Positions 37,499 to 50,489 of a stretch of DNA of 64,000 bases are shown piece by piece. A program made the translations under genes and the position numbers. The DNA is taken from positions 14,145-78,144 of the forward strand of contig JAHEFZ010000002.1 in NCBI GenBank assembly GCA_024639935.1. Direction: 5' to 3'. How positions within the stretch are numbered: position 1 is the stretch's first letter; every line of letters starts with the position of its first letter. Source of the stretch: Microbacteriaceae bacterium (GTDB taxonomy: Bacteria > Actinomycetota > Actinomycetes > Actinomycetales > Microbacteriaceae). Under the pieces are notes generated by a model that did not search any database, was not told where the DNA came from, and saw only the letters and a program-made list of their open reading frames with translations.

Positions 37499-39864
<2,366 letters not shown>

Positions 39865-39893
39865 GGTGTTCCTCCTCTCGGCCTATGTCGGAA

Positions 39894-41531
39894 TTATTTA
39901 CGCTTGCGCGGCTTGACGATTTTGGCTTGTTCGACCTCATCGGCGGGCAGTGCGTCGAATTGTTCCGACCCTGCGATGGTTCCACCCTTGCCACCCTGGA
40001 ATGACGTGATGAACTTGTCTATTTCCTTTTCGAGGTCGGCTTCCGTGGCGTCATCAAGAACATTGGTCGAACGGAGTGTGTCGAGAATCTTCGTGTTGCG
40101 GCGAAGGTGTTCGATCAATTCTCTTTCGAAACGAAGGACGTCGGTAATCTCGAGCGTGTCGAGTTTGCCCTTAGTACCCGCCCAAATCGAGACGACCTGC
40201 TCTTCAACCGGGTACGGCGAGTACTGAGGCTGACGCAAAAGCTCGGTCAAACGCGCACCTCGCGCGAGCTGGCGGCGACTCGTCGCATCAAGATCCGATG
40301 CGAACATCGCAAAGGCTTCAAGTGAGCGATACTGCGCTAGCTCGAGTTTCAGTGTCCCGGATACCTTCTTGATCGACTTGACCTGGGCGTCTCCACCAAC
40401 TCGCGAGACCGAAATTCCTACGTCGACGGCAGGTCGCTGGTTCGCGTTGAACAGGTCGGACTGAAGGAAAATTTGTCCGTCCGTGATCGAGATGACGTTG
40501 GTGGGGATGTATGCCGAGACATCGTTCGCCTTGGTTTCGATGATGGGAAGACCCGTCATCGAACCGGCGCCGAGTGCGTCCGACAATTTGGCGCAACGCT
40601 CGAGCAAACGCGAATGCAAATAGAAAACGTCGCCCGGGTAGGCCTCACGTCCCGGCGGTCGGCGAAGCAACAGCGACACGGCACGATATGCCTCCGCCTG
40701 CTTGGAGAGGTCATCGAAAATAATGAGGACGTGTTTGCCCGCGTACATCCAATGCTGGCCAATGGCGGAACCGGTGTACGGTGCGAGGTACTTGAATCCG
40801 GCAGGGTCCGAGGCAGGTGCAGCGACGATGGTCGTGTACGCCATTGCTCCGGCTTCTTCGAGTGCGCCCTTGACGGCCGCGATTGTTGAACCCTTCTGAC
40901 CGATGGCGACATAGATACAGCGAACCTGCTTGTTCGTGTCACCCGATTCCCAGTTCGCTTTTTGATTGATAATCGTGTCCACGGCAATTGCGGTCTTACC
41001 AGTCTGGCGGTCACCAATGATGAGCTGGCGCTGTCCGCGACCAACGGGAATCATGGCGTCGATTGCTTTGATTCCGGTCTGCAGTGGTTCGTGTACCGAC
41101 TTTCGCGCCATGACTCCGGGAGCCTGAAGCTCTAGAGCACGGCGCCCTTCCGTCTTGATCGTTCCCAGACCGTCAATGGGGTTACCCAGCGGATCAATCA
41201 CGCGACCGAGGTAACCCTCGCCAACCGGGACCGAGAGGACCTCTCCGGTTCGGGTGACCTCTTGACCGGCTTGAACTCCCGAGAATTCACCGAGCACGAC
41301 GACACCGACGGAGTCCTCGTCAAGGTTCAACGCGAGACCGAGCGTCCCGTCAGCGAACTTGATCAACTCGTTCGCCATCACCCCGGGAAGTCCATCGACG
41401 TGCGCGATTCCGTCACCCGCGTCGATGACGTGTCCGACCTCTTTCGCGCTCGATTTCGAGGGCTCGTACGACTTCGCGAAATCGCCCAGCGCCTTGCGGA
41501 TGTCATCCGCGTTGATTGTCAGTTCAGCCAT
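39894..41531 (-). CDS. atpA: ATP synthase alpha subunit
   Basis: Non-catalytic F1 subunit, 545 residues. Walker A is [11 protein letters not shown], with [16 protein letters not shown] and [18 protein letters not shown]-like blocks. A C-terminal extension of about 40 residues ([20 protein letters not shown], then KPRKRK) goes beyond the core and is basic at its end, as in many actinobacteria. Confidence 0.98.
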
Positions 41532-46266: not shown

Positions 46267-47124
46267 CTAACGGACCGCGGTGAGGGCTCGTTCGCGTTGG
46301 AGAAGGTCCGCGTGTGTCGTAGCCATCGAGAGCCCCGCATCCCGCGCAATGTTTCGAACGGCGGCCCCCTGCCCGTCGCCGTGCTCGACAACGAGCGTTC
46401 CGCCGTGACGCAAGAGACATGCGGCACGGGCAATGAATATACGAATATCCCGTAACCCGTCCTCTCCGCCAAACAGTGCGATCTCGGGGTCGTGGCCCAG
46501 CACCTCAAGGTCTGCTGGCTTTTCCGAATCCGGGATGTACGGCGGGTTTGCCACAACGACATCGATTGTCCCATCGAGTTCCGGCATCGCGCTCGTTACA
46601 TCACCAACCACAAGTGTCACTCGCCCGTCTCCAAATCGTGCGATGTTGCGCTCTGCCCATCCTGCGGCCGCGGTCGACAGTTCGATGGCAAAAACTTCGG
46701 AGTTGGGGACTTCGGTTGCTAGCGCAAGGGCAAGTGCCCCGGTTCCCGTTCCCAAATCGACGGCACGAGGCCGCGGTGACGGAACTTGCCGGAGTGCGTC
46801 GATCGCCCATTCGGCCACCATCTCGGTTTCGGGCCGCGGGATGAGGACTCCCGGGCCAACGGCAAGAACGAGGTGGCGAAACGGTGACTCACCCGTGATG
46901 TGTTGGAGTGGTTCACGGGACTCACGACGGGTTGCGATGATCACAATTTCCGCAACCAACGCCTGGTCCAGCTCGACCCCCATGAACGCCTTGGCAGCCA
47001 CCTCGCCGCGAGTCCAGCCTGCGACATGTCCAACAATAAGTTCAGCGTCGGCGAGAGCCGAGACGATGCCTGCTCGATCGAAACGCTCGGCGAGAGCCGA
47101 AACGATCTCGCCGACCGAGGTCAC
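46267..47124 (-). CDS. prmC: Release-factor glutamine methyltransferase
   Basis: Methylates the GGQ glutamine of release factors such as PrfA, encoded just upstream. The SAM-binding block is [15 protein letters not shown] and the catalytic motif [12 protein letters not shown]. The GTG at 47124 overlaps the prfA stop by 4 nt (GTGA), which gives 285 residues; an open extension to 47181 lies inside prfA. The tight coupling with its substrate gene is conserved in many bacteria. Confidence 0.95.
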
Positions 47125-48206
47125 GAGCCGGAGGACTCCGAGAGCGCTTTGAGTTGCGCCTCTTCGTCGACAGCGATACACGAGTCAATAATCGGTTCCA
47201 GCGCGCCGTTCATCACTTGATCGAGGTTGTAGGACTTGTATCCCGTTCGGTGATCCGCAATACGGTTCTCGGGGAAGTTATAGGTGCGGATTCGCTCTGA
47301 CCGGTCCATCCCTCGAATCTGACTCTTGCGGGCGTCACTCGCGACGGCATCGCGTTCTTCTTGCTGACGTGCCAGCAAGCGCGCGCGCAGAACACGCATC
47401 GCCGATTCCTTGTTTTGGATCTGGCTCTTTTCGTTCTGACACGACACAACGATTCCCGTCGCAAGGTGAGTTATTCGAACCGCCGAATCGGTCGTGTTGA
47501 CAGACTGACCGCCCGGCCCGCCCGACCGGAATACATCGATACGGATGTCATTCGGACTGATTGCGACTTCTTCGGGTTCGTCGACCTCGGGAAACACCAG
47601 CACGCCCGTCGTCGAGGTGTGAATTCGTCCCTGGGCTTCCGTTGCGGGAACGCGTTGCACGCGATGAACCCCGCCCTCATATTTGAGTTTCGCCCACGCG
47701 CCGTTTGCGGGGTCCGTTGCATTGCTCTTTATCGCGAGCTGAACATCTTTGAAGCCGCCGAGGTCGCTGTCGGTGCTGTCGAGAATCTCGACCCGCCACC
47801 CGCGGCTGTCGGCGTATTGGGTGTACATGCGAAGCAGATCGGCGGCGAACAAAGCGCTTTCGGCCCCGCCCTCACCACCCTTAATCTCCATGATGACGTC
47901 ACGACCATCGTCGGGATCACGAGGGATGAGCAACCGACGAAGTTTCTCTTCGAGCTCGGTGACACTTGCTTCCATCGGCGCAATCTCCGCAGCGAACACC
48001 TCATCATCCTTGGCGAGTTCCTTTGCCGCCGCGAGATCATCACGAGCAGCGGACAACGCTTCGTGCGTCGTGACAATCTGATTCAACTCCGAATAACGGC
48101 GGTTGAGCTTTTTAGCGCGCGCCGGATTAGCGTGAATTGCCGAATCGGCAAGTTCAACCTGCAGCGCGGCGTGTTCCGCGACGAGTCCGTCGATTGATTC
48201 GAGCAT
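47121..48206 (-). CDS. prfA: Peptide chain release factor 1
   Basis: Terminates translation at UAA/UAG. The GGQ loop is [20 protein letters not shown], and the stop-codon tripeptide region is [12 protein letters not shown]. At 361 residues it is normal. It starts 9 nt after the rho-like stop and overlaps prmC. Confidence 0.97.
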
Positions 48207-48215
48207 CGGGACTCT

Positions 48216-49451
48216 TTACAGGGTGACGACTGCGGTGGCGATATCGAGGAGTTCGTCGCGAACCGCACCGTTGAATCCGTCGGGCTGGTTATCGATTGTG
48301 GCAATGACCGTGAGCGAACCACCCGTCTCGAGAGCGCGCCCCGCGCCGAACAAGCGCTTGGTCGCCGAGAACACGGCGGCATCCACCGCTCCGTCACCGA
48401 GAGGACGAGATCCCTGAATCACGGCTAGTTGGTTCTTCGAAACACGGGTCATCGAGTCGACGAGGACGACAACGTGATGTCCCTTTTCGACAAGTCGCTT
48501 CGCCCGCGCGATGGCAAGGTCGGCGACGGTCACGTGTTCGTCCGCATGGCGGTCGTACGACGATGCACTGACTTCGCCGCGAACACCACGGCTGAGTGCT
48601 GTTACGTCCTCGGGCAAACCCTCGGAGACGACGACCATGAGGTGGGCGTCCGTTGCGCTCGCCGAAATCTCGGCCGCGAGTTCACGAATCACGGCGGTGC
48701 GACTCGCGCCAGCAGCCGCATCAATGAGAACGCGATCACCCTTCTTGACGGCACCGAAACGGCCGCTCAAACCCAGTCCCTCGCTCGCGTGAACAGCAAC
48801 GAGGTCGTTGAATTCTTCGCGGACGACGGCTTCTTCTGGTGCTGCACCGTTCACAAAATCTATGGTCGCGAGCGCGTTGTACTTCTGACGATTTTGGAAG
48901 TCGTTGTCGCGAGGCTGGCGGATTGCTCCCACAATGGCGTCACCCTTGCGAAGGTTGTACTTTTTGACCTGACCGAGCGCGACATAGATGTCGGCGGGGC
49001 TGGCAAGGTAGCCTGCCGTGCGAACGAACGCATAGTTGTCGAGAATGTCGAGGATTCCGGCCACGGGGATGAGAACGTCATCGTCGCTCACGCCATCAAA
49101 ATCATCGTCGCGTCCGCGACCGCGCTTGCGGTTGCGCTGTCGGCCACGGCCGGTGTCTGCTTGCGCGTCATCGGACTCGGACGTTTCCACATTGTCCGAG
49201 CCCTCGGCGTCGGTGGTTGCGGCCGCGGTGCGCCCACGACCGCGACCGCGAGTGCGTCGGCCAACGGGTGCTTCGCCATCAGTCGGCGCCTCACCCGATT
49301 CAGTTGCCGACTCGGGTGCGACCGTGGCGTCGAGGGTGACGACCTCAACCGGCGCGTCAGCGGACTTCTTGGTCGCCCGTCGCGGTGCACGCTTTCGGAC
49401 TGGCGCTTCTCCGCTATCAGCCACGGGTACGTCTGTTACTTCGTTATCCAT
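48216..49451 (-). CDS. rho: Rho-like protein with degenerate ATPase site and missing C-terminus
   Basis: Occupies the conserved rho position upstream of prfA. Residues 1-127 are the acidic/Arg-rich extension usual in actinobacterial Rho. Residues 128-200 keep the RNA-binding cold-shock fold (AGILDILDNYAFVR, SPADIYVALGQVKKYNLRKG). In the ATPase part, the P-loop APPKAGKT of normal Rho is replaced by AAAGASRT (245-252), so the essential Lys is gone; DERPEE becomes SEGLPED (276-282), losing the catalytic Glu-Arg. Walker B (VVVLVDSMTR) stays. After FNGAVRDE the protein ends at residue 411, without the R-loop, arginine finger and last helices. No frameshift is seen; prfA follows at 9 nt. Probably cannot hydrolyse ATP. 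Confidence 0.85.
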   Translation of the reverse strand: MDNEVTDVPVADSGEAPVRKRAPRRATKKSADAPVEVVTLDATVAPESATESGEAPTDGEAPVGRRTRGRGRGRTAAATTDAEGSDNVETSESDDAQADTGRGRQRNRKRGRGRDDDFDGVSDDDVLIPVAGILDILDNYAFVRTAGYLASPADIYVALGQVKKYNLRKGDAIVGAIRQPRDNDFQNRQKYNALATIDFVNGAAPEEAVVREEFNDLVAVHASEGLGLSGRFGAVKKGDRVLIDAAAGASRTAVIRELAAEISASATDAHLMVVVSEGLPEDVTALSRGVRGEVSASSYDRHADEHVTVADLAIARAKRLVEKGHHVVVLVDSMTRVSKNQLAVIQGSRPLGDGAVDAAVFSATKRLFGAGRALETGGSLTVIATIDNQPDGFNGAVRDELLDIATAVVTL

Positions 49452-49538: not shown

Positions 49539-50489
49539 TTAGAGACCGTCTCCATCGGGCAGTACCACAACTGTAGCACCCTTAAAGTCAACGGCGAGCA
49601 TGAGACATTCCCACCGCGTCTCTTTCGACGCGTCAACGATGCTCGCTGCGCGCGCACGTTCGAGTGGGTCGTCGGTGAGAACAAGGACCGACGGCCCGGC
49701 GCCCGACACGACAGCGGCGAATCCCTCGTCACGCAAACGACGAATTAGGGCAATCGTCTCCGGCATTGCTTCCGCGCGATATTCCTGGTGAAGTTTGTCT
49801 TCCGTTGCGGCGTGCAGAAGTTCGGGACTCTGGAGGAGGGCCGCAATGAGAAGCGCGGAACGCGACACGTTGAAAACCGCGTCCTCGTGCGGAACCGTTT
49901 CCGGCTGAAGGTCTCGAGCCAACTTGGTGCTCATTGTCATATCGCGGGGAACAGCAACCAACAGTGAAACACCGCGGTGCACTGTCAACTTTTTGTGTTG
50001 GGGTCCGGTTTCGGTCATCCACGCAATCGACAAACCTCCGAAAAGGGCGGGGGCGACGTTGTCAGGGTGCCCTTCCATTTTCGTTGCGATGTCCAGCAAG
50101 CCCTGCGCATCGATATCGACGATTCCTTCGAGAAGGCCCTTCGCCACCATTATTCCGCCAACAATCGCCGCCCCAGACGATCCCATTCCACGACCGTGCG
50201 GAATCCGGTTGTCGCACACGAGGTCGACGATCGGAACGGGGATTCCGACATGTTCGAACGTTGCTGCCATCGATTGAACGACCAGATTAGTTTCATCCGT
50301 CGCCACCGTCCCATCGCCGACGCCGCGAACGGTGACCCGAGTGACACCAGTGTCGAGCGCAGTTGCAGTCAACTCGTCGTAAAGCGACAGGGCAATTCCG
50401 AGAGTGTCAAAACCGGGGCCGAGATTCGCCGTGGTGGCGGGTACTTTGACATGGACGGCACGCCCGACGGGAACGGTGGACGGCATCAT
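49539..50489 (-). CDS. thrB: Homoserine kinase
   Basis: GHMP-family kinase of 316 residues: ATP loop [18 protein letters not shown]-terminal [18 protein letters not shown] and C-terminal [14 protein letters not shown]. Phosphorylates homoserine for ThrC. Its ATGATG start overlaps the thrC stop by 4 nt. It closes the threonine operon before the rho-like gene (87-nt gap). Confidence 0.95.

Follow-up and report, generated by a model that had tools for sequence, protein, structure and literature searches.

A Rho homologue that has probably lost its motor is the sole, conserved Rho of a genus of Microbacteriaceae and may act together with an altered NusG

Our results indicate that a genus of small, streamlined freshwater bacteria of the Microbacteriaceae possesses, as its only Rho homologue, a protein that retains the RNA-binding fold of Rho and in which the residues that serve hydrolysis of ATP, as well as those through which a neighbouring subunit activates it in trans, are missing. 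It is nearly certain that this pseudo-Rho is functional and maintained by selection, and very probable that it is not a motor. Our main reading, to which we give a probability of roughly one in two, is that it is a hydrolysis-free, RNA-binding protein linked to NusG and acting on elongation. The gene was found in a 64,000-nt stretch of DNA (hereafter the window; GenBank assembly GCA_024639935.1, contig JAHEFZ010000002.1, positions 14,145 to 78,144) from a genome of 1.31 Mb that is 96% complete and assembled in 23 contigs. Ribosomal protein S10 was unmatched in this whole genome and present in the congeners, which is probably an assembly gap. The gene, its domains and its neighbours are listed below in window coordinates.

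48216..49451, (-) strand: pseudo-rho gene, 411 aa, the sole Rho homologue of the genome
49083..49451, (-) strand: N-terminal extension, Arg/Gly-rich and of low complexity (RGRGRGR, RNRKRGRGR), residues 1-123, the fastest-evolving part
48834..49082, (-) strand: OB-fold RNA-binding domain, residues 124-206
48219..48833, (-) strand: ATPase remnant, residues 207-411
48696..48722, (-) strand: former Walker A motif, DAAAGASRT, residues 244-252, with K184->R
48600..48626, (-) strand: former catalytic-Glu motif, SEGLPEDVT, residues 276-284, with E211->G278, invariant
48453..48473, (-) strand: Walker B strand, VVVLVDS, kept, residues 327-333, with D332 invariant
47121..48206, (-) strand: prfA (release factor 1), 9 nt downstream of pseudo-rho, a control gene for the selection tests
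46267..47181, (-) strand: prmC (methyltransferase of release factors), the next gene after prfA
49539..50489, (-) strand: thrB, the upstream neighbour of pseudo-rho, a control gene

The order rho-prfA-prmC is the usual one, and gene order in the window and at the congener loci places pseudo-rho in the orthologous position. Its 411 codons are open and the frame is intact, as a previous reading of the sequence alone (the sequence-only reading) had stated. The same strand holds the F1-ATPase genes atpA and atpD (window 37871-41075), some 8-10 kb downstream of pseudo-rho, and their nucleotide-binding domains score normally. The Pfam family Rho_RNA_bind (PF07497) matches residues 130-206 of pseudo-Rho with an E-value of 2.9e-24. 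The NCBIfam rho model TIGR00767 also matches (E-value 7.5e-68), over positions 45-315 of its 415, and the score of 229.3 bits stays below the full-length cut-off of 509.45. For NF041509, the Rho short-form paralogue, the score of 204.8 bits likewise stays below the cut-off (628); the protein resembles that family in its Rho-like core but is a sole copy rather than a paralogue.

Residues were compared using E. coli Rho (L108, from the MG1655 record) as the reference. The sequence-only reading had described a kept RNA-binding fold and Walker B strand, a lost P-loop lysine and the loss of the catalytic Glu and Arg of DERPEE, and the alignment bears out all of these. The equivalents of the primary-site residues F62 (as Y), F64, R66, D78, Y80 and Y110 are kept in the OB fold, as are D265 and S266 of Walker B. 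The substitutions K181->G, G183->S and K184->R turn PPKAGKT into AAGASRT, such that GASRT stands in place of the Walker A GK[T/S], and E211->G and R212->L turn DERPEE into SEGLPED. The Q-loop and R-loop of the secondary RNA site are rewritten, with G282R, R283P, L285G and K326G fixed, and the R-loop position reads DNQPDGFNGAVRDE in place of DTGSKMDEVIYEE. The protein had also been described as stopping before the R-loop, the arginine finger and the final helices. The truncation stands for the latter two only: the open reading frame passes the rewritten R-loop and ends one strand beyond it, at about E. coli residue 345. Some 74 C-terminal residues are absent, including R353, the arginine finger R366 and the C-terminal helices. 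Because Rho rings assemble via the C-terminal domain, the truncated protein may not form a polymerase-contacting ring. AlphaFold models had a mean pLDDT of 39 with the genus alignment and 45 for residues 124-411; the alignment was shallow and these models were set aside.

The dead form of Rho was confirmed and found to be a property of the genus, not of one genome as first described. Each of the 15 genomes of the genus has a single Rho, always in this form, and none of these proteins reaches the TIGR00767 cut-off. A search of the window genome for a second Rho returned only two F1-ATPase subunits, which upholds the claim that this Rho is the sole one. The isolate MWH-Ta3, whose genome is near-complete (a contig of 1,544,824 bp), also carries pseudo-Rho as its only Rho. 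No frameshift or stop was found in the gene in any of the 15 genomes. The 14 aligned copies, one of which lacks its N-terminus owing to a contig end, have in common the P-loop Arg-Thr (R251, T252), Gly in place of the catalytic Glu and the Walker B Asp, and they share an identical C-terminal end point (VVTL or VVAL).

We compared the window gene with those of the six closest congeners by Nei-Gojobori dN/dS. The ratio was 0.006-0.012 for the OB-fold domain (0.006-0.02 at its widest), 0.05-0.09 for the ATPase remnant and 0.11-0.19 (about 0.16) for the Arg/Gly-rich N-terminus, relative to 0.009-0.016 for prfA, 0.025-0.047 for thrB and 0.032-0.045 for thrC. For the closest pairs, the RNA-binding domain showed lower values than all three control genes. 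Since dS was high, the low dN does not stem from low divergence. Across the genus, 60 of the canonically conserved positions of the ATPase domain are invariant and unchanged, 40 have become fixed for another residue and 58 vary. The 40 fixed positions have the same new residue in 14/14 copies and include K184R, E211G, Y274Q, P279Q and K326G; in E. coli Rho, P279S and Y274D are termination-defective (PMC1950744). The 239-257 block and R221 of the ATPase remnant are conserved. These patterns of substitution are those of a protein that is not decaying and has settled into a new conserved shape.

Rho scored above the curated cut-off in 383 of 394 genomes of the class and in 216 of 250 genomes of Microbacteriaceae. 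By E-values and contig counts, the sole basis of this judgement, the low scorers of the class other than the window genome resemble contig fragments or less divergent forms. Partial matches at contig ends (G099, G181, G081, G137, G219) were left out of the count of degenerate Rho. Motor residues were found lost or eroded in the genera g6, g15, g49 and g19 and in the genome G029, and more mildly in g52, g13, g73 and g17. The P-loop Lys is replaced by Arg in the window genus, G029 and g49, by Gly in three g15 genomes and by Ile, Val or Ala in g6; it is kept in one member of g15, and the truncated Rho of g19 keeps GKT. In the eroded lineages, the RNA-binding domain agrees with the family consensus at 0.74-0.98 of conserved columns (0.62 in G029), against 0.37-0.62 for the ATPase domain of the strongly degraded lineages. 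Canonical Rho proteins have pairwise identities of 0.84 in the RNA-binding domain and 0.95 in the ATPase domain, and this order is inverted in g6 (0.79/0.48), g15 (0.90/0.61), g52 (0.95/0.71) and g1 (0.93/0.81).

In an RpoB tree, the window genus is sister to g52, the Pontimonas lineage (support 98/94). The genus g19 groups with the canonical g5 and g7 and the mildly divergent g17 (97/94), g13 groups with the canonical g68 (99/97), and g6, g15, g73 and g49 form one group (84/85 with g49, 100/99 without it). These groups, together with G029, suggest about four to five independent starts of motor erosion in the family, as counted by eye on this single-gene tree. Rho of g52 (L084, L086, L087, L089) keeps Lys184 and Glu211, has R212Q/N and an eroded C-terminus, and possibly represents an intermediate stage. 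Rho of G029 (L095), a genome of 927,303 bp that we take to be possibly Tropheryma whipplei Twist, carries Lys->Arg in Walker A and Ile in place of the catalytic Glu, with the domain order kept. The ATPase domains of g15 and g6 are still diverging. In the 3.2-Mb genome G132, the Rho match (L094) holds an in-frame TAG, and therefore loss of the motor domain may be continuing in g15.

The lineage must terminate transcription without a Rho motor because the motor residues are lost and no other rho is present, in agreement with what had been proposed from the gene alone. Compensation by intrinsic terminators was the expected outcome and was rejected, as the window genome has fewer of them than its relatives. 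We surveyed hairpins in 400-kb samples of six genomes at convergent gene junctions with a gap of at least 30 bp, using our own gene calls; the window-genome sample consisted of contigs C16, C1 and C23, window included, the genome is fragmented and the samples are small. Strong hairpins were found at 0/10 convergent gene ends in the window genome, 11/15 in MWH-Ta3, 6/8, 7/9 and 12/29 in three canonical relatives and 3/17 in a putative Pontimonas genome. The difference between the window genome and MWH-Ta3 gives a one-sided Fisher P of about 3e-4, calculated by hand. The window genome had 4 perfect stems of at least 11 bp, against 2 in a Markov control; MWH-Ta3 had 12 and the other genomes 25-27. 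The window species thus appears to lack both a Rho motor and visible terminators. The losses of the Rho motor and of the hairpins are not tied to each other, because MWH-Ta3 has the same pseudo-Rho and has hairpins. Purine bias of genes, an idea for a mark of Rho loss taken from PMC13323073, was 0.489-0.502 in the six genomes and offered no useful contrast.

In the genus, only 0.58-0.64 of conserved columns in the KOW domain of NusG match the canonical consensus, as compared to 0.86-0.95 in the NGN domain. The KOW domain of the sister genus g52 is canonical (0.96-0.98). A new sequence, KLSI[FL]INVFGRDTAVEF, replaces KLTVLVSLFERETPVEL and is common to all six congeners that were read. The KOW domain was rewritten on the branch leading to the genus and was conserved afterwards. 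In E. coli, the NusG loop around I164, F165 and G166 contacts Rho (PMC7593976); S10 also binds to this part of KOW (PMC7819879). This loop has changed from SLFER to NVFGR in the genus; the equivalents of F165 and R167 are kept and the KOW domain is remodelled as a whole. Because the loop reads NVFGR, it is changed and not abolished, and we read the NusG-Rho interface as altered rather than abandoned. Alternatively, the KOW changes could reflect S10 binding or a loss of Rho binding. Erosion of the Rho ATPase correlated with KOW divergence across 11 hand-picked genera (Spearman 0.90, uncorrected for phylogeny), and the correlation with the KOW minus NGN difference alone was not significant in these genera. 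In one g6 genome (G124, L114), the NusG KOW is strongly diverged (0.64) beside a degenerate Rho, as an independent case.

We propose that the ancestral rho gene became a selected, hydrolysis-free RNA-binding protein, the only Rho homologue of the genus. Its OB fold and Arg/Gly-rich tail would bind nascent RNA; in M. tuberculosis Rho, the N-terminal region that corresponds to this tail binds RNA (PMC4167861). The modified contact with the NusG KOW domain would hold pseudo-Rho at or near the transcribing polymerase, and pseudo-Rho would affect elongation by binding alone, through pausing, inactivation or transcript marking, and would not pull on RNA. Transcripts would in that case have to be released by something else, for example RNases or collisions. 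There is a precedent in E. coli, for whose Rho a translocation-independent step and motor-independent polymerase inactivation have been proposed (see the discussions in PMC7819879 and PMC9908020). The sequence-only reading had offered three options: a hydrolysis-free RNA- or NusG-binding factor, a protein that regulates a second Rho, and a Rho that is drifting towards its loss. Purifying selection and the co-remodelling of KOW make the first of these the best supported.

Pseudo-Rho might instead be a general RNA-binding protein or RNA chaperone that handles mRNA or small RNAs outside transcription, with the ATPase remnant as a scaffold. That the RNA-binding domain is the most constrained part of the protein, and is kept in several lineages while the motor decays, would fit such a role, but neither the NusG KOW change on the same branch nor the conserved ATPase remnant, with its 239-257 block and R221, is predicted by it, and we judge it unlikely, though worth keeping in mind. 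It is rather improbable that pseudo-Rho is an antiterminator or RNA-shielding factor that covers nascent RNA and protects it rather than stopping transcription: the kept RNA-binding residues and lost motor agree with this, and read-through may be tolerated or favoured in a window genome without terminator hairpins, yet there is nothing obvious to antagonise because the genome has no active Rho.

P-loops of the RecA superfamily in which Lys is replaced by Arg can still bind ATP. This general knowledge, together with the invariant R251-T252 and Walker B Asp, is what speaks for a working motor with an unorthodox ATPase site in which Arg takes the place of the P-loop Lys. Every congener, however, has Glu->Gly, rewritten Q- and R-loops and no arginine finger or C-terminal helices, which makes such a motor very improbable. 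A decaying remnant heading for loss, the third of the earlier options, might be expected from the small genome, the partial erosion in sister g52 and the continuing ATPase divergence of g15 and g6; it is contradicted by dN/dS values of about 0.01-0.09, by intact frames in 15 genomes, by the identical end point and by the 40 ATPase positions fixed in 14 copies, and is hardly credible. Random decay of this copy beside a normal Rho in its relatives was not what we found: the congeners share the dead form, and most other genera are normal. The fragmentation (23 contigs) and 96% completeness of the window genome leave some room for an assembly artefact or for a regulator of a second Rho. The same form is nevertheless present in independent assemblies and in the 1.54-Mb contig of the isolate, and a second Rho is absent from the window genome and from all 15 genomes of the genus, such that the chance of either is close to negligible.

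Pseudo-Rho resembles TIGR00767 Rho in its rho-prfA-prmC locus, its OB fold with primary-site residues, its Walker B and its actinobacterial Arg/Gly-rich extension, but lacks the Walker A Lys, catalytic Glu, arginine finger and C-terminal helices, and its Q- and R-loops are rewritten. The closest solved chain is that of M. tuberculosis Rho (PDB 7oqh; PMC8828861, PMC4499133), which has the same domain order and an RNA-binding N-terminal extension but differs in having the motor motifs and in having been shown to be a motor (PMC4499133); an earlier, disputed proposal, which offers a second precedent, held its activity to be independent of the motor (PMC4499133). Rho of g52 is similar in its intact RNA-binding domain, eroding motor region and replaced R212, but it keeps the P-loop GKS, E211 and the C-terminal domain, and its NusG KOW is canonical. 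The proteins of g6, g15, g49, g19 and G029 have also lost motor residues and kept the RNA-binding domain, but through other substitutions, mostly without truncation and from separate origins. A literature search, which did not include the survey of Rho distribution by D'Heygere et al. (2013), found no description of a motor-dead Rho in Microbacteriaceae, and Rho goes unmentioned in the paper on the Pontimonas genome; it is possible that individual degenerate Rho sequences were noticed earlier. Taken as a whole, we advance only tentatively, and at somewhat less than even odds, that Rho was converted several times in one family into a motor-free RNA-binding pseudoenzyme, and that it here co-evolved with NusG into a hydrolysis-free factor controlling elongation or termination in genomes with no Rho motor and, in the window species, no recognisable intrinsic terminators.

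The usual picture of Rho is that of an ATP-driven ring motor, and it is disputed whether Rho can inactivate polymerase by binding alone. A lineage that keeps only the non-motor parts of Rho, under selection and with a matching change in NusG, would make this dispute testable beyond E. coli. The family also points to a repeated evolutionary path in which the motor erodes first and the RNA-binding domain stays, and leads one to ask how transcription comes to an end in these streamlined freshwater bacteria. Because the RNA-gripping part is strongly selected and the relatives lost the engine independently, these results suggest that part of Rho can work usefully without fuel.
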